From [Ruminococcus] torques ATCC 27756 (GTDB lineage: Bacteria; Bacillota; Clostridia; Lachnospirales; Lachnospiraceae), in the NCBI RefSeq assembly GCF_000153925.1, contig NZ_DS264345.1, forward strand, positions 496,001 through 560,000: a stretch of DNA of 64,000 nucleotides, given 5' to 3'. Positions within the stretch are counted from its first letter, which is position 1. Each line of letters begins with the position of its first letter. Made by a program: the position numbers and the translations under genes. Below the pieces are notes generated by a model. That model was not told the origin of the DNA. It saw only the letters and a list, made by a program, of their open reading frames with translations, and searched no databases. Shown here piece after piece: positions 43,196 through 56,404 of this stretch.

Positions 43196-44239
43196 ATGGA
43201 AATGACGAGAAATTTTGGGTGTACGAAGGAAGGAAATCAGGCGAGTCTCTATGTGATAAGAAATGAAAACGGGATGGAGGCAGCAGTGACTGACTTAGGA
43301 GCGACACTGGTCAGTTTGAAGGTGAAAAATAAAGAGGGAAGCATGGCGGACGTTGTTCTGGGATATGAAAACGCGGCCGGTTATGAGGCAGGTACGTGCT
43401 TTTTCGGAACGATTGTAGGAAGAAATGCAAACCGGATTGGCGGCGCGCAATTTGAATTAAACGGAAAAACATATCATTTGACGGGGAATGATAACGGAAA
43501 TAATCTGCACAGCGGTATGGATTTCTACAATATAAGGATATGGGAGACGGAAGAGGTGACGGAGACGTCTGTTCGTTTTAAACTTCATAGTCCGGATGGA
43601 GATCAGGGATATCCGGGAACGGCAGATATATACGTGACATACAGCCTTGATAAAGATGATAAGCTTGATATCTTTTATGAAGCTTTGTCGGACAAAGATA
43701 CGATTCTGAATATGACAAATCATAGTTATTTTAATTTAGATGGACATAACAGCGGAAGTGTACTGCAGCATACGCTTACTCTGGAGGCGGATTATTTTAC
43801 TCCGGGGGATGCACAGTCAATACCGACAGGAGAGATTCTTCCGGTGGAGAATACACCTATGGATTTTCGGGAAGGAAGAAAAATAGGAGAGAGGATCGAG
43901 GAAGAGTACGAACCGCTTCGATTCGGAAACGGATATGATCACAACTGGGTTTTGAAAAACAAAGGAAACTTTGAGAAAGTGGCGGAACTTATGGCTGAGG
44001 AAAGCGGAATCGTGATGGAAACTTACACGGATCGTCCGGGAATGCAGATTTATACGGCGAACTTTGTAGAAAATGAAGTAGGTAAAGAGGGCGTCGTATA
44101 TGGGAAAAGAAGCGCAGTTTGTTTAGAAACACAGTGTTATCCTGATGCGGTTCACCATGAGAATTTCCCAAGTCCTGTATACCGTGCAGGTGAAAAATAT
44201 ACCGCACATACTGCATTTCGTTTTTTGATAAAGAAGTAA
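43196..44239 (+). CDS. galM: Aldose 1-epimerase (galactose mutarotase)
   Basis: A 347-residue mutarotase interconverting alpha and beta anomers of galactose before GalK. Substrate-binding GRNANRIGGAQF, LHSGMDFYN with the first histidine, NMTNHSYFNLDGH with the catalytic histidine, and a late VCLETQCYPDAVHH glutamate region are in the usual order. GAAAGGAAGG lies just upstream; the start may be 43196 or the ATG two codons later. It precedes the mgl genes but is separated from them by a terminator. Confidence 0.95.
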   Translation: MEMTRNFGCTKEGNQASLYVIRNENGMEAAVTDLGATLVSLKVKNKEGSMADVVLGYENAAGYEAGTCFFGTIVGRNANRIGGAQFELNGKTYHLTGNDNGNNLHSGMDFYNIRIWETEEVTETSVRFKLHSPDGDQGYPGTADIYVTYSLDKDDKLDIFYEALSDKDTILNMTNHSYFNLDGHNSGSVLQHTLTLEADYFTPGDAQSIPTGEILPVENTPMDFREGRKIGERIEEEYEPLRFGNGYDHNWVLKNKGNFEKVAELMAEESGIVMETYTDRPGMQIYTANFVENEVGKEGVVYGKRSAVCLETQCYPDAVHHENFPSPVYRAGEKYTAHTAFRFLIKK

Positions 44240-44563: not shown

Positions 44564-45838
44564 ATGAAGAGAAAAATAGCTTTAATCACAATGGCGGCGG
44601 TAATGGCACTGTCAGTTACTGCGTGTGGAGGAGGATCTGACAGCGGAAAGTCAGCGTCAAATAATTCTTCCGGATCGGAAGTGGCAAATAAGGACAAACC
44701 GTTGGTATGGTTCAACAGACAGCCGTCAAACAGTTCCACGGGAGAATTGGACATGACAGCATTGAACTTCAATAAAGATACATATTATGTAGGATTTGAT
44801 GCAAATCAGGGTGCTGAACTTCAGGGAACTATGGTAAAAGACTATATCGAAAAAAATATAGATAAAATTGACCGTAACGGTGACGGAGTGATCGGATATG
44901 TTCTGGCTATCGGAGATATCGGACATAACGATTCTATCGCACGTACAAGAGGTGTCCGTAAAGCTCTTGGTACAGGCGTAGAGAAAGACGGAGATATCGA
45001 CAGCGCTCCGATCGGAACAAATGCAGACGGAACTGCAACTGCTGTAAAGGACGGAACGATTGAAGCCGGCGGAAAGAAATATGTAGTAAGAGAACTTGCT
45101 TCTCAGGAGATGAAGAACTCTGCAGGAGCAACATGGGATGCGGCTACAGCAGGAAATTCAATCGGCACATGGTCCTCTTCATTTGGGGAAAACATAGACG
45201 TTGTAGTTTCCAACAATGACGGAATGGGAATGTCAATGTTTAATGCATGGTCAAAAGATAATAAAGTACCTACTTTCGGATACGATGCAAATAATGACGC
45301 GGTAGCTGCTATTGCAGAAGGTTACGGCGGAACGATCAGCCAACATGCAGACGTACAGGCATATTTGACATTGCGTGTTATCCGTAATGCACTTGATGGC
45401 GTAGATATTGATACAGGTATCGGTACAGAAGATGAAGCAGGCAATGTTTTGTCTGAAGATGTATATACATACAATGAAGAGCAGCGTTCTTACTATGCGT
45501 TGAATGTAGCGGTTACAGCTGATAACTATCAGGAATTTACAGATTCTACAAAAGTATATGAGCCGGTATCCAAACAGCTGGATGAGAAAGAACATGCGAA
45601 AAAGAAAGTATGGCTGAACATTTACAATGCTTCCGATAACTTCTTAAGTTCTACATACCAGCCGCTTCTTAAGAACTATGATGATCTTCTTAATTTAGAC
45701 GTTGAGTATATCGGCGGTGACGGACAGACAGAGTCCAATATTACAAACCGTCTTGGAAATCCTAGCCAGTATGATGCGTTTGCGATTAACATGGTAAAAA
45801 CAGATAATGCGGCTTCCTATACATCATTACTTCAGTAA
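44564..45838 (+). CDS. mglB: Galactose ABC transporter substrate-binding lipoprotein, circularly permuted
   Basis: A 424-residue lipoprotein (lipobox ending VTAC, Cys21). Residues 45-140 match the middle of canonical galactose/glucose-binding protein: PLVWFNRQP with the ligand Asn51, TYYVGFDANQGAELQG, the calcium loop DRNGDGVIG (103-111), and GHNDSIAR with His121, Asp123, Arg127. Trp191, the SNND pair at 217-218 and Asp241 follow. The section that opens canonical proteins lies at the end: VWLNIYNASDNFLSS (349-363, with Tyr354, Asp358, Phe360) through AFAINMVKTDNAAS. The order of the two halves is thus swapped, joined by a linker at about 328-347. The canonical Asn of GTVLN is replaced (GTISQ). 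It feeds the MglA/MglC transporter downstream. Confidence 0.9.
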   Translation: MKRKIALITMAAVMALSVTACGGGSDSGKSASNNSSGSEVANKDKPLVWFNRQPSNSSTGELDMTALNFNKDTYYVGFDANQGAELQGTMVKDYIEKNIDKIDRNGDGVIGYVLAIGDIGHNDSIARTRGVRKALGTGVEKDGDIDSAPIGTNADGTATAVKDGTIEAGGKKYVVRELASQEMKNSAGATWDAATAGNSIGTWSSSFGENIDVVVSNNDGMGMSMFNAWSKDNKVPTFGYDANNDAVAAIAEGYGGTISQHADVQAYLTLRVIRNALDGVDIDTGIGTEDEAGNVLSEDVYTYNEEQRSYYALNVAVTADNYQEFTDSTKVYEPVSKQLDEKEHAKKKVWLNIYNASDNFLSSTYQPLLKNYDDLLNLDVEYIGGDGQTESNITNRLGNPSQYDAFAINMVKTDNAASYTSLLQ

Positions 45839-45859
45839 TAATGAGGATAAGCAGGTCTA

Positions 45860-45890
45860 TTAGGGAGAAGGAATTCTCCCTAATATTTTT
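45860..45890 (+). terminator. Hairpin between mglB and mglA
   Basis: TTAGGGAGAA and its complement form a 10-bp stem closed by a GGAA tetraloop, then TATTTTT. It should end many transcripts after mglB, so the binding protein is made in excess of the transporter, as in many sugar ABC operons. Confidence 0.8.
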
Positions 45891-46076: not shown

Positions 46077-47585
46077 ATGGCAGATAAGAAAGATAATATC
46101 GTCTTATCGATACGGGATATGAGTAAGTCCTTTGGAAGAAACAGAGTTCTCACTCGCATCAATCTGGATGTGAAAGCGGGAACAGTTATGGGGCTTATGG
46201 GGGAAAACGGCGCTGGAAAATCAACGATGATGAAGTGTCTTTTCGGTACCTATCAAAAAGACGAAGGAAATATCTTCCTGGATGGGAAAGAGGTAAGTTT
46301 TTCCGGACCGAGGGAGGCGTTGGAAAACGGTATCGCTATGGTTCACCAGGAATTGAATCAGTGTCTGGAGAGAAATGTAGTTGACAATTTGTTTCTTGGA
46401 CGGTATCCGGTGAATGCGGTCGGTGTAATAGATGAAGGCCGGATGAAAAAAGAGGCGTCTGAACTTTTCAGAAAATTGGGAATGACAGTCAACTTGTCTC
46501 AGCCGATGCGTAATATGTCGGTTTCTCAGCGGCAGATGTGCGAGATTGCAAAAGCAATCTCTTATAATTCCAAGGTGATCGTTTTGGATGAGCCTACCTC
46601 TTCATTGACGGTGCAGGAAGTAGAAAAACTTTTTGAAATGATGAGAATGCTGAAAGAGCAGGGAATTGCTTTGATTTATATTTCTCATAAAATGGATGAA
46701 ATTTTTGAAATTTGTGATGAAATATCGGTGCTTCGAGACGGAAATCTGGTTATGACAAAGAGCACGGAAGATACAGATATGAATGAACTGATTACGGCAA
46801 TGGTAGGACGTTCTCTTGAAAACCGTTTTCCGGAAGTGGATAATACGCCGGGAGATGTGGTTTTGTCCGTGCAGCATTTATCTACAAAATTCGAGCCTTA
46901 TCTTAAAGATGTGTCTTTTGATGTGAGAAAAGGAGAAATCTTCGGATTGTATGGTCTGGTAGGAGCCGGACGAACAGAGCTTATGGAGACGATTTTCGGA
47001 GTGCGCACCAGGGCGGCAGGACGAGTATACTTTAATAATCATCTTATGAACTTTGAAAGTGCGAAAGATGCGATGGAACATGGCTTTGCTATGATCACGG
47101 AGGAACGTAAGGCAAACGGATTATTTTTGAAGGGAGATCTTACGTTTAATACAACGATAGCAAACTTGAAACAGTATAAATCAGGGATCGCTCTTTCTGA
47201 TTCGAAAATGGAAAAAGCGACTGCGGAAGAAATCAAGACTATGCGGACAAAATGTATGGGACCAAATGATATGATTTCAAATCTTTCCGGAGGAAACCAG
47301 CAAAAAGTTATTTTTGGAAAATGGCTGGAAAGAGAACCGCAGGTATTTATGATGGATGAACCGACAAGAGGAATTGATGTCGGCGCAAAATATGAGATAT
47401 ATGAACTGATTATCAACATGGCAAAGCAGGGCAGGACGATCATTGTTGTCTCGTCTGAAATGCCTGAAATTCTGGGAATTACAAATCGCATTGGCGTTAT
47501 GTCAAATGGATATCTTTCTGGAATTGTTAATACAAAAGAGACAAATCAGGAAGAACTATTAAGACTTAGCGCAAAATACCTATAA
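46077..47585 (+). CDS. mglA: Galactose/methylgalactoside ABC transporter ATP-binding protein
   Basis: A 502-residue tandem ATPase of the MglA/RbsA class. The first half has Walker A GENGAGKST, signature VSQRQMCEIAKA and Walker B VIVLDEPTSSL. The second half has the degenerate loop GLVGAGRTE, signature LSGGNQQKVIF and MMDEPTRGIDVG, as is normal for the class. It energises import through MglC. It follows mglB after a hairpin and a repeat element, with AGGAG before the ATG. Confidence 0.95.
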   Translation: MADKKDNIVLSIRDMSKSFGRNRVLTRINLDVKAGTVMGLMGENGAGKSTMMKCLFGTYQKDEGNIFLDGKEVSFSGPREALENGIAMVHQELNQCLERNVVDNLFLGRYPVNAVGVIDEGRMKKEASELFRKLGMTVNLSQPMRNMSVSQRQMCEIAKAISYNSKVIVLDEPTSSLTVQEVEKLFEMMRMLKEQGIALIYISHKMDEIFEICDEISVLRDGNLVMTKSTEDTDMNELITAMVGRSLENRFPEVDNTPGDVVLSVQHLSTKFEPYLKDVSFDVRKGEIFGLYGLVGAGRTELMETIFGVRTRAAGRVYFNNHLMNFESAKDAMEHGFAMITEERKANGLFLKGDLTFNTTIANLKQYKSGIALSDSKMEKATAEEIKTMRTKCMGPNDMISNLSGGNQQKVIFGKWLEREPQVFMMDEPTRGIDVGAKYEIYELIINMAKQGRTIIVVSSEMPEILGITNRIGVMSNGYLSGIVNTKETNQEELLRLSAKYL

Positions 47586-47596
47586 AATGAGGGAGA

Positions 47597-49261
47597 ATGA
47601 TGAATATGGCTAATGGAAACAGTAAGGTTCTGACGGCGGAACAGGAAATGCAGATTCGCCGTCCGATAGAAGAATACGTCGGTGCAATTCAAAAACAGAT
47701 TGACGGTCTCCGGGTGGACGGCACGGATAAAGTGTTGTCGCTGCAAAACACAATGGACGGAGTAAAGAGAGATCGCACTCTTACAAAAGGTGAAAAAGAG
47801 GATAGACTTACGAGAATGCGCAGGGAACTGCAGCAGGCAAAAGCGGTAGAGTCTAAGAATAAAGACAGGATTTCAAAACTGATTGCAGATGCGGAAGCAT
47901 ATTTGAAAGAACATTTCGACAAGGAATATTATGTGCCTGTTAAAGAAAGCTGCGCACAGGAAAAAGTCCTTGCGAAAGAGAAATATCAAAAAAGAGTAGA
48001 AGAACTGAAGAAAGAGCATCAGCAGATTCTTTCCAAACTTTCAGAACATCAGGAAATAAAGGATGAAAAATATGTTTATAAGAACAGGCTGTTCGATGCG
48101 AAAATGGAACTGCAAAAAGATTATCAGACTATAAAGGACAGACGGCATGCGGCGTATTCTTATAAGTATCATCTGATTGATTTGCTGCGTATGTCAAAAT
48201 TTACTTTTCTTGAAACGCGGGCGCAGAAATGGGAGAATTATAAATATACGTTCAGTAAAAGAAATTTCTTCCTTCAGAACGGATTATATATCGCTATTCT
48301 CTTGATATTTATTGTGCTTTGTATTATTACGCCGATGATTAAGGGAGCGCCTTTGCTCACTTATAATAACGTGCTGAACGTACTTCAGCAGGCATCTCCG
48401 AAGATGTTCCTTGCATTAGGTGTTGCAGGTTTGATTCTTCTTGCAGGCACAGACCTTTCAATCGGGCGAATGGTAGGTATGGGAATGACGACGGCAACGA
48501 TTATTATGCATCAGGGAATTAATACGGGTGGAGTTTTTGGACATATATTTGATTTCACGTCAACACCTATCATTGTGCGTGTAATCTTGTCATTGGTTAT
48601 ATGTATACTTTTGTGTACATTCTTTACAATGATCGCCGGATTTTTTACTGCCAAGTTTAAGATGCACCCGTTTATCTCGACAATGGCAAACATGCTCGTG
48701 ATCTTCGGACTTGTTACATATGCTACAAAAGGAGTATCTTTCGGAGCTATCGAACCGACGATTCCGAATATGATTATTCCAAAGATAAACGGATTCCCTA
48801 CAATTATCATATGGGCAGCAGCCGCAGTCTTTATTGTGTGGTTTATTTGGAATAAAACAACTTTTGGTAAGAATTTGTATGCGGTCGGCGGAAATGCAGA
48901 AGCGGCGTCGGTGTCAGGTATTTCAGTATTTGCCGTTACGGTAGGAGCATTTATTCTGGCAGGTATTCTTTACGGATTCGGCTCCTGGCTGGAATGTATA
49001 AGAATGGTCGGTTCAGGTTCTGCCGCATACGGACAAGGATGGGAAATGGATGCGATTGCAGCCTGCGTAGTAGGCGGCGTGTCATTTACCGGAGGTATCG
49101 GAAAAATCTCGGGAGTAGTAGTCGGTGTGTTTATTTTCACAGCGCTTACATATTCCCTTACGATCCTCGGAATTGACACAAACCTTCAGTTTGTATTCTC
49201 AGGTATTATCATTCTTGTTGCGGTAGCGCTGGATTGTCTGAAATATGTACAGAAAAAATAA
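47597..49261 (+). CDS. mglC: Galactose/methylgalactoside ABC permease with a long N-terminal extension
   Basis: A 554-residue permease; MglC is usually near 330-350 residues. The C-terminal part from about 228 has the expected helices and the motifs GVAGLILLAGTDLSIGRMVG and GGNAEAASVSGI. The first 225 residues are hydrophilic, rich in Glu, Lys, Gln and Arg, and predicted helical, with heptad-like stretches at about 45-105 and 125-185. Being before the first helix it should lie in the cytoplasm near MglA. GGGAG precedes a group of three in-frame ATG codons, so the exact start is uncertain by a few residues. Base composition is even across the junction, so there is no sign of mis-assembly. Confidence 0.92.
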   Translation: MMNMANGNSKVLTAEQEMQIRRPIEEYVGAIQKQIDGLRVDGTDKVLSLQNTMDGVKRDRTLTKGEKEDRLTRMRRELQQAKAVESKNKDRISKLIADAEAYLKEHFDKEYYVPVKESCAQEKVLAKEKYQKRVEELKKEHQQILSKLSEHQEIKDEKYVYKNRLFDAKMELQKDYQTIKDRRHAAYSYKYHLIDLLRMSKFTFLETRAQKWENYKYTFSKRNFFLQNGLYIAILLIFIVLCIITPMIKGAPLLTYNNVLNVLQQASPKMFLALGVAGLILLAGTDLSIGRMVGMGMTTATIIMHQGINTGGVFGHIFDFTSTPIIVRVILSLVICILLCTFFTMIAGFFTAKFKMHPFISTMANMLVIFGLVTYATKGVSFGAIEPTIPNMIIPKINGFPTIIIWAAAAVFIVWFIWNKTTFGKNLYAVGGNAEAASVSGISVFAVTVGAFILAGILYGFGSWLECIRMVGSGSAAYGQGWEMDAIAACVVGGVSFTGGIGKISGVVVGVFIFTALTYSLTILGIDTNLQFVFSGIIILVAVALDCLKYVQKK

Positions 49262-49455: not shown

Positions 49456-49484
49456 TTTACAGGCATGTATGTCTTTGTTATAAT
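49456..49484 (+). promoter_or_regulatory. Promoter of the YesN/YesM sensor operon
   Basis: TTTACA (49456-49461) and TATAAT (49479-49484) with a 17-bp spacer, 39 bp before the response regulator start. Confidence 0.75.
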
Positions 49485-49522: not shown

Positions 49523-51148
49523 ATGGATAAATATACAATACTTTTGGTTGATGATGAAGAGGAAGTAATACAGGCTATTATCCGAAAAATTAATTGGGAA
49601 GAGTTGGGATTTTCTGTAGTCGGATATGCCGATAATGGAATCAAGGCGCTGGAAATGATAGAGGAGAGTCAGCCGGATGTTGTTATGACAGATATTAAAA
49701 TGCCGTATATGGACGGCATGGAGCTGTGCAGTCATATCAGAAGAGAGTATCCGGCGATGAAGATCGTACTTTTTACAGGTTTTGATGAGTTTGAATATGC
49801 AAAGGAAGCGGTTCATCTGGAAGTGGAGGAATATATTTTAAAGCCGGTTAATTCTGTGGAATTGATCAATATATTCACAAAGTTAAAAATAAAGCTGGAT
49901 CAGGAGATAAGTGAAAGAAGAAGCATGGAAAAGCTGGAACATTATTATACGGAGTCCCTTCCTCTTTTGCAGGCAAATTTTTGTTCTACTCTGATAGAGG
50001 GAAGGATTCATGAGGATGAACTTCAGAAATACCTGTCGGATTATCAGATTTCTCTTCCGGGTCCATTATACTGCTGTCTGGTCATTCATATGTCGTCCAG
50101 TCAGATTCCGGAAAATATGAATTCCTTATTTTTAGCCGCGTCTGTACAAAAACAGGCAGAAGACCGTCTGGGGAAAAGATGGAAGGCAAAATGTTTTCCC
50201 TACCTTGGAAACAGCGTTCTGTTTGCCCAGATAAACAATGAAAATGAGATTGCGGAGCTGACAGATGACTGCGACCGCTTTTGTAAGTATGTAAACCGCA
50301 TGATGGGAACTGTTGTCACGGTAGGAATAGGCCAGGTCTGCAGTCAGATTTTGGATTTGGCACAATCGTATAACGCAGCGCGTGAAGCGGTTTCATATCG
50401 TGCCGTCTACGGCGCTTCCAGGGCGATTAACATTAAGGAAATCGCGCCTAAAGAGTCGGGAGAGCCCTGTTTTACAAATGATATGGAATTGTTGAATTTA
50501 TTTAAAAAGATTCGTTTGAATTCGGAAGAAGAGATTGTAGAAGCGGTAGATCAGTATATAGAAAGCATTTCATTTCCGCTGAAATCATTGCAGCAGCATC
50601 ATGTGGTGATCATGGAGTTGGTAACCGCCTTGTTTCGGTTTTCTGTAAATAATGATATTGCAGCGGAGGGGGTAGGCGGAGATATCGGAATACTCTATGG
50701 AAAGCTGCTTGAGCTTGAACCCGATGCGCTGCGAAAATGGCTTACGGATATCAGCCTTTGCTTCAGCGAAAATTTGGTTACGGCAAGGAGCAGATCAACT
50801 CAGTCCTTTGTATCAAAAGCGAAGGAGCATGTCCGCAGTCAATATGCAGATGTACAGTTGTCTCTGGCTCAGATTTGTGAAAGACTTGGGGTGTCTAATT
50901 CCTATTTTTCTACAGTGTTTAAAAAGGAAACAGGAAAATCTTTTGTCAGTTATGTGACAGATTACCGTATGGAACAGGCTGCGCGCCTGCTGATTGAAAC
51001 AAATGAAAAGAGTTATGTCATAGCGCAGAAAGTAGGATACACAGATCCTAATTATTTTAGCTATGTATTTAAAAGGAAGTTTGGCGTATCACCGTCAAAA
51101 TACAGAGCGGAGCATATAAAAAGTGAAAAACAAGTATTTGAAAAGTAA
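49523..51148 (+). CDS. YesN-type response regulator with AraC DNA-binding domain
   Basis: A 541-residue regulator. The receiver domain has LLVDDEEEV and phospho-accepting Asp57 in VVMTDIKMPYMDG. A long middle region resembles the GGDEF-related linker found in YesN proteins. The C-terminal AraC domain (about 430-535) has RLGVSNSYFSTVFKKETG and GYTDPNYFSYVFKRKFG. It opens an operon with a YesM/LytS-type kinase and two sugar-binding proteins, just downstream of mgl. The likely target is the mgl promoter, whose weak core fits an activated promoter. Confidence 0.93.
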   Translation: MDKYTILLVDDEEEVIQAIIRKINWEELGFSVVGYADNGIKALEMIEESQPDVVMTDIKMPYMDGMELCSHIRREYPAMKIVLFTGFDEFEYAKEAVHLEVEEYILKPVNSVELINIFTKLKIKLDQEISERRSMEKLEHYYTESLPLLQANFCSTLIEGRIHEDELQKYLSDYQISLPGPLYCCLVIHMSSSQIPENMNSLFLAASVQKQAEDRLGKRWKAKCFPYLGNSVLFAQINNENEIAELTDDCDRFCKYVNRMMGTVVTVGIGQVCSQILDLAQSYNAAREAVSYRAVYGASRAINIKEIAPKESGEPCFTNDMELLNLFKKIRLNSEEEIVEAVDQYIESISFPLKSLQQHHVVIMELVTALFRFSVNNDIAAEGVGGDIGILYGKLLELEPDALRKWLTDISLCFSENLVTARSRSTQSFVSKAKEHVRSQYADVQLSLAQICERLGVSNSYFSTVFKKETGKSFVSYVTDYRMEQAARLLIETNEKSYVIAQKVGYTDPNYFSYVFKRKFGVSPSKYRAEHIKSEKQVFEK

Positions 51149-53066
51149 ATGCGGGTATGATATGCAAGGAGAAAACCAAAATACGGAAAAAAGCCGCATT
51201 ACGGAACGGGTGAGAAGCTGGGAAAAATATGGGGGATGGACAAATTTAAAACCAAAAGGGATACAAACGACTCTGATGGGAGTGTTTTCGCTTGTTTCCA
51301 TCACTATCATGTTGATTTCCGGGTTTGTTATGTATATATGGTTTTCTACGTTATCAAGGGAAGAGACTGTGCAGAGTACCCAAAAGCTGATGGAACAGAC
51401 GGGGGAGAGTCTGGAAGATTATCTTGTCAGTATGAGACAGGTGTCTGATACCGTTTACTACAATATTATAAAAGAGAGCGATTTCTCCAAACAAAAACAG
51501 GAGATTCAAAGCAGGATGAATCTTTTGTATGAGGCAAATAAAGATAATCTTCGAAGTATCGCAATTTATAATCATTATGGAAGTTTATTGGCGGCAGAAC
51601 CGGTAGCGTCTCAAAAAGAAGATCCGGACGTAACCCAGCAGGACTGGTACATACAGGCGTTGGATGAAGTGGAAAATATGCATTTTTCCACACCTCATAT
51701 TCAAAATTTGTTTGATGATGGAACGCAGCATTATTATTGGGTTACTTCTTTAAGCCGTATGATCGAAATTACAGACAGCGGAGTGTCTAACTGGGGGGTT
51801 CTGCTTGTGGATATGGATTATGCGGATATTTCAAGAATGATGAATCAGATCAATACTTTGAACAATGGAGAGTATTATTATCTGTGCGACAGTAATGGGG
51901 AAATCATCTATCATCCGAGGCAGATACAGATCAGTAACGGTCTTAGCGGAGAAAACAGCAGTCTGGCAGCCTCCCACAAGGACGGTGTGTACGAAGATGA
52001 TTTTAAAGGCGAGAGGCGGAAAGTAATAGTCAATACTATCAGTTATACCGGATGGAAGCTGGTGGGGGTAATTCCTTATTCGGCATTTATACACGGGATG
52101 ATCGACGTGCGATATTTTATTATTTTGTTGATGCTTCTGACGGTAATGGTACTTGTAGCGCTTAATCGTGTCGTTTCAGCGAGAATCTCAAGCCCGATTT
52201 TGAAATTAAACGCATCAGTACTGGAGTATGAAGCGGGTGAAAAGCCGGAGGTATATATTGGAGGAGCGGAAGAAATCCGGTATCTCGGATATTCTATCCA
52301 AAAATCTTATGAGCAGATAGATGAGCTTATGAAGGAGATTATTATCGAACAAAACGAACGTAGAAAAAGCGAGTTGGATGCATTGCAAAGCCAGATTAAT
52401 CCTCATTTTCTTTATAACACGCTGGATTCTATCACGTGGATGATCGAGGATGGACGCAACGACGAGGCGGCGTTTATGATTTCACAGCTTGCAAAATTGT
52501 TCCGTATAAGTTTATCAAAAGGGCATACTGTGATTAATATCCGGGATGAGCTGCAGCATGCCCGAAGTTATATGAATATACAGAAGATACGATATAAAAA
52601 TGCCTTTTCAGTTACTTTCGATGTAGATGATTCTCTTTATGCATTTTGTATTGTAAAACTGGTTTTACAGCCGATCTTGGAAAATGCGATCAATTACGGA
52701 ATCAATGGGACAGATGACTGCGGTGAAATAAAAATCAGCGGTAAGATGGAGAATGGGCTTATTATTCTTTCGGTGACAGATAACGGGATCGGTATGTGCA
52801 GTGAGGAAGTGAGCCGGCTTTTGACAGATGAGAAAAGAGTACATAAGCATGGTTCGGGAGTAGGACTTGTGAATGTTAATAACCGCATTAAGATTGTATT
52901 TGGAAAAGAATATGGTATAGTCGTGGAAAGCGAGCCGGATGAAGGAACAACTGTCTCGATCTGCATCCCGGCGGTTTTGTATACAGAAGAGAACCGCAAG
53001 GCTTTGGAAGGAGGAAACCTTCACGAAAAAGAGAATGAACAGAAAAAGGAACCGCAGAGGGAATAA
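51123..53066 (+). CDS. YesM/LytS-family sensor histidine kinase
   Basis: A kinase of up to 647 residues. Two membrane helices (about 55-80 and 325-350) enclose an extracellular Cache-like sensor domain containing DPDVTQQDWYIQA. A HAMP-like region and the HisKA_7 signature follow with His428 in QINPHFLYNTLD, then an ATPase with LVLQPILENAINYG and GSGVGLVNVNNR. The start is uncertain: GTG at 51123 overlaps the regulator gene; ATG at 51162 is an alternative that keeps all domains. It probably senses sugar through one of the binding proteins encoded next. Confidence 0.92.
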   Translation: MKNKYLKSKCGYDMQGENQNTEKSRITERVRSWEKYGGWTNLKPKGIQTTLMGVFSLVSITIMLISGFVMYIWFSTLSREETVQSTQKLMEQTGESLEDYLVSMRQVSDTVYYNIIKESDFSKQKQEIQSRMNLLYEANKDNLRSIAIYNHYGSLLAAEPVASQKEDPDVTQQDWYIQALDEVENMHFSTPHIQNLFDDGTQHYYWVTSLSRMIEITDSGVSNWGVLLVDMDYADISRMMNQINTLNNGEYYYLCDSNGEIIYHPRQIQISNGLSGENSSLAASHKDGVYEDDFKGERRKVIVNTISYTGWKLVGVIPYSAFIHGMIDVRYFIILLMLLTVMVLVALNRVVSARISSPILKLNASVLEYEAGEKPEVYIGGAEEIRYLGYSIQKSYEQIDELMKEIIIEQNERRKSELDALQSQINPHFLYNTLDSITWMIEDGRNDEAAFMISQLAKLFRISLSKGHTVINIRDELQHARSYMNIQKIRYKNAFSVTFDVDDSLYAFCIVKLVLQPILENAINYGINGTDDCGEIKISGKMENGLIILSVTDNGIGMCSEEVSRLLTDEKRVHKHGSGVGLVNVNNRIKIVFGKEYGIVVESEPDEGTTVSICIPAVLYTEENRKALEGGNLHEKENEQKKEPQRE

Positions 53067-53068
53067 GG

Positions 53069-54046
53069 ATGAAGAATGGCAAAAAGATATTTATTTTGGT
53101 AGAAACATTTCTGGGGCTTATGGTTTTTGTGTTGGTCATGTTCATGTTTTTGGAAAAAAATGAAAAAAAGCAAGAAAAAATTTCCGTGATCATCCAGAAT
53201 TCAGATGATAGTCAGTGGGCAGCATTTAAGTATGGGGCAAAAATGGCGGCGGCAGATAAAAAGACAGAGGTATTTGTGGTAAGTACAGCGGGAAGTCTGA
53301 GTGTACAGGAAGAAGAGAACTTAATAGAAAGAGAAATTGCAAACGGCGCATCCGGAATTATTGTAGAGCCTGCCAATGGAGAGAAAACAGAAAAGATGCT
53401 AAAAGAAGTCGAAAAGAAAGTGCCTGTTGTGCTTGTGGAAAGCCTTGCGTCTTCTGATGGAACAGAAACGAAAATGCCGGTTACGGGAGCGGATAATTAT
53501 GCCATGGGAAAAGCGTTGGCAGAGGAATTATTAAAAGACTGCGGCGGAAATATAAAAGGGAAAAAGATAGGGCTCGTTTCGGGAGAAGAAAACGCAGAAG
53601 CTATAAGTGAACGGGCAGAGGGGGTTCGAGCGGTTTTGGAAGAAAAACAGGCGGATATTCTATGGCAGATATCGGATTCTTTTGCGGAAGACAAGGAAAA
53701 AAATTCAATGGAACAAAGCGAAAAAGTGGATTTTATAATGACATTAGATAATATAAGTCTGGTGGCAGCCGGGGAATGTTCTTCGACAAATAATCTGCAT
53801 GGGGCGGTTCTGTATGGAATCGGACATTCTATGGAAGCTTTCTATTATTTAGATACAGGAGAGATACAATGTCTCGTAGTGCCGGATGAGTTTAACAGAG
53901 GATATCAGAGTGTGGCAGAACTATCAGACAGTTTGCGGCGCTTCATGAAAAAGCCGGAACGAAACACGGTTTCATATTCGACTGTTCGCAGAGAGACACT
54001 GTTTTCAAAAGAAAATCAAGAAGTTTTGTTCACTATGAGTCAGTAA
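53069..54046 (+). CDS. Membrane-anchored sugar-binding-protein homologue, probable sensor subunit
   Basis: A 325-residue type I periplasmic-binding fold with an uncleaved-looking N-terminal helix (residues about 7-28) and no lipobox. ISVIIQNSDDSQWAAFKYG and ASGIIVEPANGEKTEKM match the N-terminal lobe; GADNYAMGKALAEELLKDCGG begins the second. The C-terminal lobe is shorter and less conserved. In Clostridium beijerinckii an anchored protein of this kind (XylFII) binds xylose and controls a LytS kinase, a useful precedent. Two bases separate it from the kinase gene, so a sensor complex is likely. Ligand unknown. Confidence 0.85.
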   Translation: MKNGKKIFILVETFLGLMVFVLVMFMFLEKNEKKQEKISVIIQNSDDSQWAAFKYGAKMAAADKKTEVFVVSTAGSLSVQEEENLIEREIANGASGIIVEPANGEKTEKMLKEVEKKVPVVLVESLASSDGTETKMPVTGADNYAMGKALAEELLKDCGGNIKGKKIGLVSGEENAEAISERAEGVRAVLEEKQADILWQISDSFAEDKEKNSMEQSEKVDFIMTLDNISLVAAGECSSTNNLHGAVLYGIGHSMEAFYYLDTGEIQCLVVPDEFNRGYQSVAELSDSLRRFMKKPERNTVSYSTVRRETLFSKENQEVLFTMSQ

Positions 54047-54086: not shown

Positions 54087-55118
54087 ATGAAAAAAAAGAA
54101 ACTATTAGCGGCAGCGATTGTTTTATGTATGGTGATACAACTCTTGTGTGCCTGCGGTAAGCAGAAAATATCCATGTCAGACAAGGTTTATGTCGGAGTT
54201 ACCTGTTACGATCAAAACGATACCTTTTTAAGCGAACTTCTTGTCTGTTTTAAAGAAGAACTTAATCATCTCAACAAGAATGGAGTTGAGACGACTGTGA
54301 CAGTTAAAAATGCTGCCGGATCTCAGCGCACGCAGAATGACCAGGTGAAAGAGCTGATAAATGCAGGATGCAACGTCCTTTGTGTGAATCTGGTAGATCG
54401 GGCAGATCCGTCGGAAATTATAGATGTTGCAAAAGAACATGATGTGCCGATTATATTTTTTAACAGAGAACCGGTTGCGGAAGATATGAGGCAGTGGGAC
54501 AGGCTTTATTACGTTGGCGCAGATGCAAAGCAGTCCGGTGTGCTGCAAGGAGAGCTGGCTGTTGAAATGATACGGCAAAACAGTCAGATAGATCACAATA
54601 AGGACGGAAAAATTCAGTATGTAGTTCTGGAAGGGGAAGCGGGACATCAGGATGCGATCATTCGTACAGAAAATGCGGTAGATACGCTTAACAAAAATGG
54701 GATTGAACTGGAAAAGTTAAGTTACCAGATTGCGAACTGGAACCGGGCGCAGGCGCAGAACCGGATGGAGCAGATGCTGGGGCAGTATAAAAATAAGATA
54801 GAACTTGTGTTGGCAAATAATGATGACATGGCTCTGGGAGCGTTGGACGCTTATAAAAATTTGAATTATACAGAGGCCCTTCTTCCGGTATTTATAGGAA
54901 TAGACGGCACGGATATGGGGTTGAAGGCAGTGGAAGATTCAAGTATGGCGGGAACGGTATATAATGATAAAGAGGGACAGGCGAGAGCGATAGCAAAGCT
55001 TTCAGCTGCATTGGTAATCGGAAAAGAAGCGGAGGAAATAAAATTTACTAATGAAAATTACATTTATCTGCCCTATTCCAAAGTCACAAAAGAAAATGTC
55101 CATGAATATCTGAAGTGA
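54087..55118 (+). CDS. Galactose/glucose-binding lipoprotein, canonical order
   Basis: A 343-residue lipoprotein (signal ending LLCAC, Cys23) of the MglB type in its usual order. Binding residues are all visible: VGVTCYDQNDTF (Tyr, Asp, Phe), FFNREPV (Asn), GHQDAIIRT (His, Asp, Arg), NWNRAQA (Trp), LANNDDM (Asn), GIDGTD (Asp), GTVYND (Asn). The calcium loop is DHNKDGKIQY. It is not beside an ATPase or permease but ends the sensor operon, so it may deliver ligand to the kinase complex or share the MglA/MglC transporter. The contrast with the permuted mglB product is notable. Confidence 0.92.
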   Translation: MKKKKLLAAAIVLCMVIQLLCACGKQKISMSDKVYVGVTCYDQNDTFLSELLVCFKEELNHLNKNGVETTVTVKNAAGSQRTQNDQVKELINAGCNVLCVNLVDRADPSEIIDVAKEHDVPIIFFNREPVAEDMRQWDRLYYVGADAKQSGVLQGELAVEMIRQNSQIDHNKDGKIQYVVLEGEAGHQDAIIRTENAVDTLNKNGIELEKLSYQIANWNRAQAQNRMEQMLGQYKNKIELVLANNDDMALGALDAYKNLNYTEALLPVFIGIDGTDMGLKAVEDSSMAGTVYNDKEGQARAIAKLSAALVIGKEAEEIKFTNENYIYLPYSKVTKENVHEYLK

Positions 55119-55231: not shown

Positions 55232-56404
55232 TTATACATCTAATCTGGAAGCGCCGACACCGATGTCTACTACATAAAATTCAGCTTCATATCCGAATTT
55301 TTCTTTATAGGCCTCTCCGACATTTTTAATAAAATTGTCTACGGCTTCATTTTTTACAATGCTGACGGTACAGCCGCCGAATCCGCCTCCGGTGATACGA
55401 GAGCCGATGACTCCCGGGGTATTCCATGAAAGATCAACGAGCAGATCGATTTCTTTACATGATACTTCATAATCATCGCGCAGAGAAACATGGGATTGAT
55501 TCATTAATTCTCCGAACTTTGTAATATCGCCTTCTTTCAGAGCTTTGACGGCGGCGATAGTGCGCTGATTCTCGTAAACAGCATGTTTGGCACGTTTTAC
55601 ACGAACTTCATCCCGGATCAGGTGCTTTGCCTCTTCAAATTCTTCTGGAGTAAGCTCGCCGAGAGAAGAAATGGACAGTTCCTTTTGCAGATCGCTAAGC
55701 GCATCCGCACATTCCTGACGTCGGACATTGTATTCAGAAGTGACAAGGCTGTGCTTTACTTTACTGTTTGTAATGATGATCTTGGAGTCCTCAAGAAGAA
55801 TGGGTGCATATTCATATTGCAAAGTGTTTGTGTCAAGAAATATTGCGTTGTCTTTTTTCCCGACAGCTACTGTAAACTGATCCATAATTCCACAGTTACA
55901 GCCGTTAAAATTATTTTCGGAGTATTGTCCGAATAAAGCAAGATCTATTGGACTTAGATCGGTAATTCCATATAAATCAGTCAGGATCACTCCGGTCAGC
56001 ACTTCCAGAGAAGCAGAAGAGGAAAGACCTGCACCGTTAGGAATATTCCCCCATATTACCATGTCAAATCCGGTATCAAGTTTGTAGCCTTTTTCGGAGA
56101 ATGTCCATACAACTCCGAGCGGATAGTTTGCCCAGTCGTAACAATCCTTGTTAGTAAGGTCGTCCAGAGATGTTTCTACTACGCCGATCTCGTCAAGGTT
56201 GCAGGAATAAAAGTGCATAAGCCGGTCTTCTCTTTTTCTTGCAACGCCATATGTACCAAGTGTCAGGGCACAGGGGAATACATGACCGCCGTTATAGTCG
56301 GTGTGCTCTCCGATAAGGTTGACGCGGCCGGGAGCAAAATAAAAATGTGCATCATCCGTAGCGCCGAAAAGTTCTGCAAATTTGTCATATAGTTTTTGTT
56401 TCAT
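55232..56404 (-). CDS. galK: Galactokinase
   Basis: A 390-residue GHMP kinase phosphorylating galactose at C1. The galactokinase signature GRVNLIGEHTDYNGG is near residue 27, the GHMP ATP loop PNGAGLSSSASLE near 120, and GSRITGGGFGGCTVSIV near the C terminus. GAGGAAA precedes the ATG at 56404. The upstream region carries the gal motif and a TATAAT box. It converges with the sensor operon. Confidence 0.97.
   Translation of the reverse strand: MKQKLYDKFAELFGATDDAHFYFAPGRVNLIGEHTDYNGGHVFPCALTLGTYGVARKREDRLMHFYSCNLDEIGVVETSLDDLTNKDCYDWANYPLGVVWTFSEKGYKLDTGFDMVIWGNIPNGAGLSSSASLEVLTGVILTDLYGITDLSPIDLALFGQYSENNFNGCNCGIMDQFTVAVGKKDNAIFLDTNTLQYEYAPILLEDSKIIITNSKVKHSLVTSEYNVRRQECADALSDLQKELSISSLGELTPEEFEEAKHLIRDEVRVKRAKHAVYENQRTIAAVKALKEGDITKFGELMNQSHVSLRDDYEVSCKEIDLLVDLSWNTPGVIGSRITGGGFGGCTVSIVKNEAVDNFIKNVGEAYKEKFGYEAEFYVVDIGVGASRLDV

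Follow-up and report, generated by a model that had tools for sequence, protein, structure and literature searches.

The closest described system is MglB-2 (Tp0684), a lipoprotein of the syphilis spirochaete Treponema pallidum whose structures are 5jx2, 6bgd and 6bgc and whose permuted topology was published in 2016 (PMC4990184, cited throughout from the part of the article available to us). The article describes a hinge that the chain crosses a fourth time and measured both the binding of glucose and closure on it; an N-lobe sheet in the strand order 5-4-6-1-2-3 characterizes the permuted subfamily. The same article proposed the name "Type Ic / Cluster Bc" for permuted ligand-binding proteins, with Tp0684 as the founder, and described homologues in spirochaetes and among bacteria that are largely Gram-positive and often gut commensals; its subfamily criterion was coverage over 90% with N-termini matching that of Tp0684. 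In the literature we searched, no natural circular permutant among binding proteins was recognized besides Tp0684, and the available part of PMC5583593 mentions neither MglB nor permutation.

Here we analyze a window (the whole stretch of DNA considered, 64,000 nt) from [Ruminococcus] torques ATCC 27756 (GCF_000153925.1, NZ_DS264345.1, positions 496,001-560,000, forward strand). An open frame at 44564-45838 codes for a protein of 424 amino acids. Our favored reading, at a probability of roughly 0.93, assigns this protein to an Mgl-type (CUT2) ABC importer for glucose/galactose, as the lipoprotein that binds the substrate, and counts it among the Firmicute members of the permuted MglB-2 subfamily, of which Tp0684 is the founder. 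The permuted MglB is real, well conserved and known in kind, and just its details are new: a sequence-only reading of the window knew of no description of such a protein, but the same permuted order is that of Tp0684 in PMC4990184. What goes beyond the available part of that article is the homology of the head by sequence, the single clade and the pairing with an extended MglC.

Chain order of the permuted protein

The translation begins with a signal peptide that matches a lipobox pattern (residues 1-21, 44564-44626; VTAC, with Cys21) and continues into a low-complexity tether (residues 22-43, 44627-44692) that is mostly variable in alignments. The body, residues 44-325 (44693-45538), corresponds by Pfam, hhalign and profile to everything in canonical MglB from the FFN(K/R)EP strand onwards. 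It is followed by a linker (residues 326-345, 45539-45598, placed by alignment and profile) that leads from where a canonical chain stops to where it begins, and which by position would correspond to the fourth hinge and the extended structure described for Tp0684 in the available part of PMC4990184. The relocated head, found by Pfam, hhalign and profile and carrying Y354, D358 and F360, spans residues 346-424 (45599-45835); all of these features lie on the plus strand. The sequence-only reading had drawn the two blocks at residues 45-325 and 348-424; the canonical end near 325 stands, but the relocated piece starts near 346 rather than 348.

Domain searches return the same two blocks. Profile positions 93-256 of the 258 in Peripla_BP_4 align at residues 70-279, and residues 346-416 match all 71 positions of PF18610 (Peripla_BP_7) at 145.5 bits, where the cut-off is 36.8. 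On this match the protein is a PF18610 member, and no difference from the family was found. The equivalog for canonical MglB, NF011924, matches the permuted protein in two pieces (93.8 bits) and the protein SBP2, encoded at 54087-55118 on the plus strand and carrying a lipobox pattern, in one piece (254.7 bits). Both lie under the cut-off of 420, a strict one: among 245 genomes of the class, just 3 encode a protein that exceeds it. The single-piece match, together with the translation and Pfam, bears out the earlier suggestion that SBP2 is an MglB-type protein in canonical order.

A structure search found residues 42-423 collinear with 5jx2 (E 2.6e-91), 6bgd (1.5e-89) and 6bgc (2.1e-89). These residues aligned in one stretch that covers 90% of the precursor and almost the entire mature protein. 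Full-length collinearity including the N-terminus, the C-terminal head and a shared clade place the protein in the permuted MglB-2 subfamily.

We assessed chain order against a canonical profile built from 48 canonical-order MglB-type proteins, namely SBP2 and those relatives from the fetched loci that BLAST matched best to it, scoring >90 bits and measuring 300-410 aa. L074, which is among the 48, grouped with other types in the tree; it was kept in the profile for the order-restoration and doubled-sequence tests and for the hhalign comparisons with canonical heads and bodies, and omitted from the comparison with 20 other binding proteins given below. In a permutation-aware alignment, the doubled sequence produced one uninterrupted domain that spans the C-to-N join and covers profile positions 3-294 of 311 at 151.5 bits, versus 122.5 bits for the top-scoring domain in the linear sequence. 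Moving the head to the front gave 154.4 bits, versus 123.7 for the body alone. The maximum was 131.7 bits for 500 shuffled heads, 132.1 for 127 slices (83 residues) of six other window proteins and 125.7 for 22 slices of the permuted protein itself; 25 slices of the related protein SBP1 reached 144.1 bits, at SBP1's own head. Restoring the order gained bits in 88/88 permuted sequences, which are not all independent (the window gene and several others are present more than once), with gains from 14.7 (Tp0684) up to 31.9 (the window protein). Comparison of the body with the canonical body by hhalign returned a probability of 100%. The unbroken match across the join, the gain on restoring the order and the end-to-end homology to a solved and published permutant support the sequence-only reading's view of the protein as a natural circular permutation of an MglB-type protein.

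Structure prediction was less informative. The AF2 model of the permuted protein was poor (mean pLDDT 55.5, pTM 0.47) and came from an alignment of 54 sequences, in which the others were 80-89% identical to the window protein. Foldseek ranked the Tp0684 structures first for this model; the match to 5jx2 adds little beyond sequence because the rmsd was high (14.7 A) and TM about 0.5.

Origin of the relocated head

Between the last part of Tp0684 and the first part of E. coli MglB, PMC4990184 (in its available part) found just 13% identity, and it allowed that the moved piece might stem from some other gene and have reached the same structure by convergence. The piece has indeed diverged out of proportion: against a canonical-head profile the permuted heads scored a median of 18.3 bits (n=56), whereas 20 other binding proteins (two of them, L167 and L168, identical) reached 40.7 with their heads, and with the bodies the ranking was reversed (124.7 versus 101.5 bits). 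However, four of the 20 (L163-L165 and SBP1) have unpermuted heads that score about as low, at 15.2-21.3 bits. The tail also aligned end to end with canonical heads in hhalign (probability 90%, P 1.5e-6) but not with the canonical body (0.4%), MglB-type heads were preferred over those of the 20 other binding proteins (90% versus 19%), and the gain on restoring the order lies far above shuffled heads and unrelated slices. Single sequences show the head-to-head match only weakly: with a profile of the tail run against the 48 canonical proteins, E was <0.01 in 7 of the 15 best matches listed (the best about 1e-6), and among these seven L074 matched elsewhere.

We consider an origin from a different gene quite unlikely, although in a variant of it the donor head may have come from a distant relative. 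The profile comparisons suggest instead that the relocated piece is detectably homologous to the canonical N-terminus and unusually diverged, and we read this as one ancestral gene whose head changed fast after the move. The answer to the question of same gene versus convergence leans to homology. Duplication followed by trimming, which the sequence-only reading proposed as the source of the swap, is compatible with the data.

A tree of the shared body retained 56/88 permuted and 45/48 canonical sequences, rows at least 88% identical to a kept row having been dropped. All 56 permuted sequences, including Tp0684, form one clade with support of 100/100, in which Tp0684 branches first; 44/45 canonical sequences lie next to this clade and do not enclose it. 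Support for the root of this tree is weak (86/63) and the outgroup is not clean; there are several long branches, one of them the stem of the permuted clade. One origin of the permuted lineage would be the simplest reading.

Distribution and operon partners

The permuted protein occurs in the same order in at least 80 named loci. These are the best 80 of 552 relatives, so all counts are lower bounds, and Firmicute matches filled the named-genome scan. Most of the 80 locus titles read Lachnospiraceae or name genera that we take to belong there; others read, for example, Bacteroidales (L028), Erysipelotrichaceae (L094) or Oscillospiraceae (L102). Of 25 genomes from the window's own genus, several of which are incomplete, 6 gave near-full-length matches. 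Across the family (one genome per genus) PF18610 is present in 21 of 200 genomes, and at the level of the phylum the permuted protein is present in 2 of 398. The distribution is patchy.

Nothing was found in favor of an assembly or frame artefact in which two genes were misjoined. The same order in those named loci, an open frame of 418-511 codons around PF18610 in 21/21 matches among the 200 family genomes and the solved structure of Tp0684 refute such a wrong join, and we regard it as having a vanishingly small chance of being correct.

The gene shares its operon with genes for an ATPase and a permease of the CUT2 type, as expected for an Mgl/CUT2 importer. The ATPase gene mglA (46077-47585, plus strand, identified by profile) follows within 600 bases in 79 of the best 80 loci (from 552 relatives); whether homologues of the same order occur beside mglA was a check that the sequence-only reading had suggested. 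Between the permuted mglB and mglA, a consensus scan marks a terminator-like hairpin of 12 pairs with a T-rich tail (45858-45885, plus strand), a feature that would be expected if the cell makes more binding protein than transporter. The MglC permease domain is encoded at 48245-49261 (plus strand; NF007014 over residues 221-554, PF02653), and MglC was found in 73 of 74 loci with room among the same best 80 of 552. In two of the records genes are split into several frames, mglC at L051:9020-10674 and both mglA and mglC at L063:7529-10707.

Downstream on the plus strand lie a response regulator with a receiver and an AraC-type HTH (49523-51148) and a histidine kinase with a dCache sensor domain (51123-53066), both identified by domain matches and here named YesN-type and YesM-type, followed by SBP1 (53069-54046), a periplasmic-binding-type protein with weakly TorT-like profile matches, and SBP2. 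Kinase, regulator, SBP1 and SBP2 probably constitute the sensor side of the locus. The YesN/YesM pair or part of it lies downstream in 55 of 70 loci with room among the best 80 of 552; seven more of the 70 have weaker kinase, regulator or binding-protein relatives upstream, and eight have neither. A strong promoter-like site (49456-49484; 11/12, with TG before the second hexamer) precedes the YesN-like gene. Between 42900 and 56500, all Rfam families stay below their cut-offs. An aldose epimerase (43196-44239) neighbors the permuted mglB, and a galactokinase is encoded nearby at 55232-56404 on the minus strand; both fit galactose use.

The whole MglC (47597-49261) carries about 216 residues before its permease domain, the match to NF007014 beginning at residue 221. 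This N-terminal extension (residues 1-216, 47597-48244, plus strand) is helical according to profiles and AF2, and a weak helix-rich match (E 0.0045) is the one that it has in NCBIfam. AF2 confidently predicts long helices at residues 14-40, 43-58, 64-147 and 151-198; ten-residue blocks from 11 to 190 score 82-92 and the whole model 59.5 (pTM 0.40), with confidence in the extension only and the membrane part poorly modelled. Our search of the literature on such an MglC extension found nothing relevant.

The extension keeps company with the permuted protein. It occurs in 21 of the 200 family genomes (those without the extension or PF18610 are named in part), the same 21 that have PF18610; in 20 of the 21 they share a contig and are at most a few kilobases apart, and in G666 they lie on two contigs. 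Among 245 genomes of the class the extension is present in two, the window's genome and G069, both PF18610-positive. Sixteen of 19 regions around canonical MglB-type genes hold an MglC that, at 328-367 residues, must be without the extension, and the other three gave no MglC match. Because the carriers seen are all in one clade, common descent is enough to account for the pairing. That the permuted protein and the extension are two halves of one functional change of the transporter, beyond co-inheritance, is a long shot; it could take the form, for example, of a regulated or scaffolded importer that works solely with a permuted, differently tethered binding protein.

Sugar contacts, lipid anchoring and proposed working

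The window protein retains N51, H121, D123, R127, W191, N218, D241, Y354, D358 and F360, as well as N217. All ten contacts named by the sequence-only reading are present in the translation and conserved in at least 87/88 permuted sequences: N51, H121, D123, R127, W191, N218, D241 and F360, along with Q260, are kept in 88/88, and Y354 and D358 in 87/88, Tp0684 being the exception. The asparagine of the GTVLN motif is changed, as that reading also noted; it is Gln260 here, Gln in 88/88, and E. coli Asn256 is likewise Gln215 in Tp0684 (PMC4990184). Of the ten contacts in Table 2 of that article, 9/10 are kept in the window protein and 8/10 in Tp0684, with equivalence to E. coli positions counted by hand along the structure-search alignment and that table.

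Altogether the window protein and Tp0684 share the permuted order, 47% identity and, in our own mapping of positions from the available part of PMC4990184, Gln for Asn256, Gly for Gln142 of the Ca loop and Asp at D166. They differ in host, the window protein belonging to a Lachnospiraceae-type gut bacterium, in a longer loop around 140-170 of the window protein, and at Asp358 and Tyr354, where the window protein resembles E. coli and Tp0684 has Asn and His. Binding has been measured for Tp0684. With MglB of E. coli and Salmonella (GGBP; 2gbp, 2fvy, 1gca) the protein shares a homologous body and, by profile, a head that appears homologous; unlike them it has the head at its C-terminus, an extra linker, Gln260 for Asn256 and the extended loop.

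The available part of PMC4990184 also put forward the hypothesis that the permuted order adapts the protein to lipid anchoring. Tp0684 is itself a lipoprotein, and a lipobox pattern is found in 79/87 permuted proteins (residues 11-130, scanned without a shuffle control). However, 36/48 canonical-order MglB-type proteins, including the window's SBP2, match the same pattern (residues 11-75; 12% in shuffled N-termini). A stricter first pattern, replaced by this wider one, had matched 55/87 and 28/48. Since canonical-order proteins also match the lipobox pattern, anchoring needs no permutation and alone does not explain it; we consider this hypothesis unlikely. In three loci the start of SBP2 resembles a membrane anchor, not a lipobox (L068:4796-5848, L087:4769-5839 and L091:4796-5848).

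We envision that the preprotein is lipidated at Cys21 and would be held by its flexible tether at the outer face of the membrane. The tether would lead straight into the equivalent of N-lobe strand 4 of an ordinary MglB, and the chain would run through the rest of the N-lobe, the whole C-lobe, an extra fourth hinge crossing and finally the first three strands of the N-lobe. As the permuted chain would complete both lobes, these could close on glucose or galactose through the usual contacts, and the sugar-loaded protein would feed MglA/MglC, while SBP2 and the kinase/regulator pair may sense sugar and regulate the operon. Beyond the order, homology, conserved contacts and operon observed here, the fold, the binding of glucose in preference to galactose and closure on binding would carry over by analogy with Tp0684, as described in the available part of PMC4990184. 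The substrate is probably glucose or galactose; the Gln260 change and the adjoining galactose genes do not decide between the two.

Because no other natural permutant among binding proteins was recognized besides Tp0684 in the literature we searched, the permuted lineage is a useful natural experiment. Within one cell, the transporter is accompanied by an MglB-type protein in permuted order and a two-component sensor by one in canonical order. With so many sequences from Lachnospiraceae, the question raised in 2016, same gene or convergence, can be tested by sequence, and the pairing with an extended MglC provides a testable lead.
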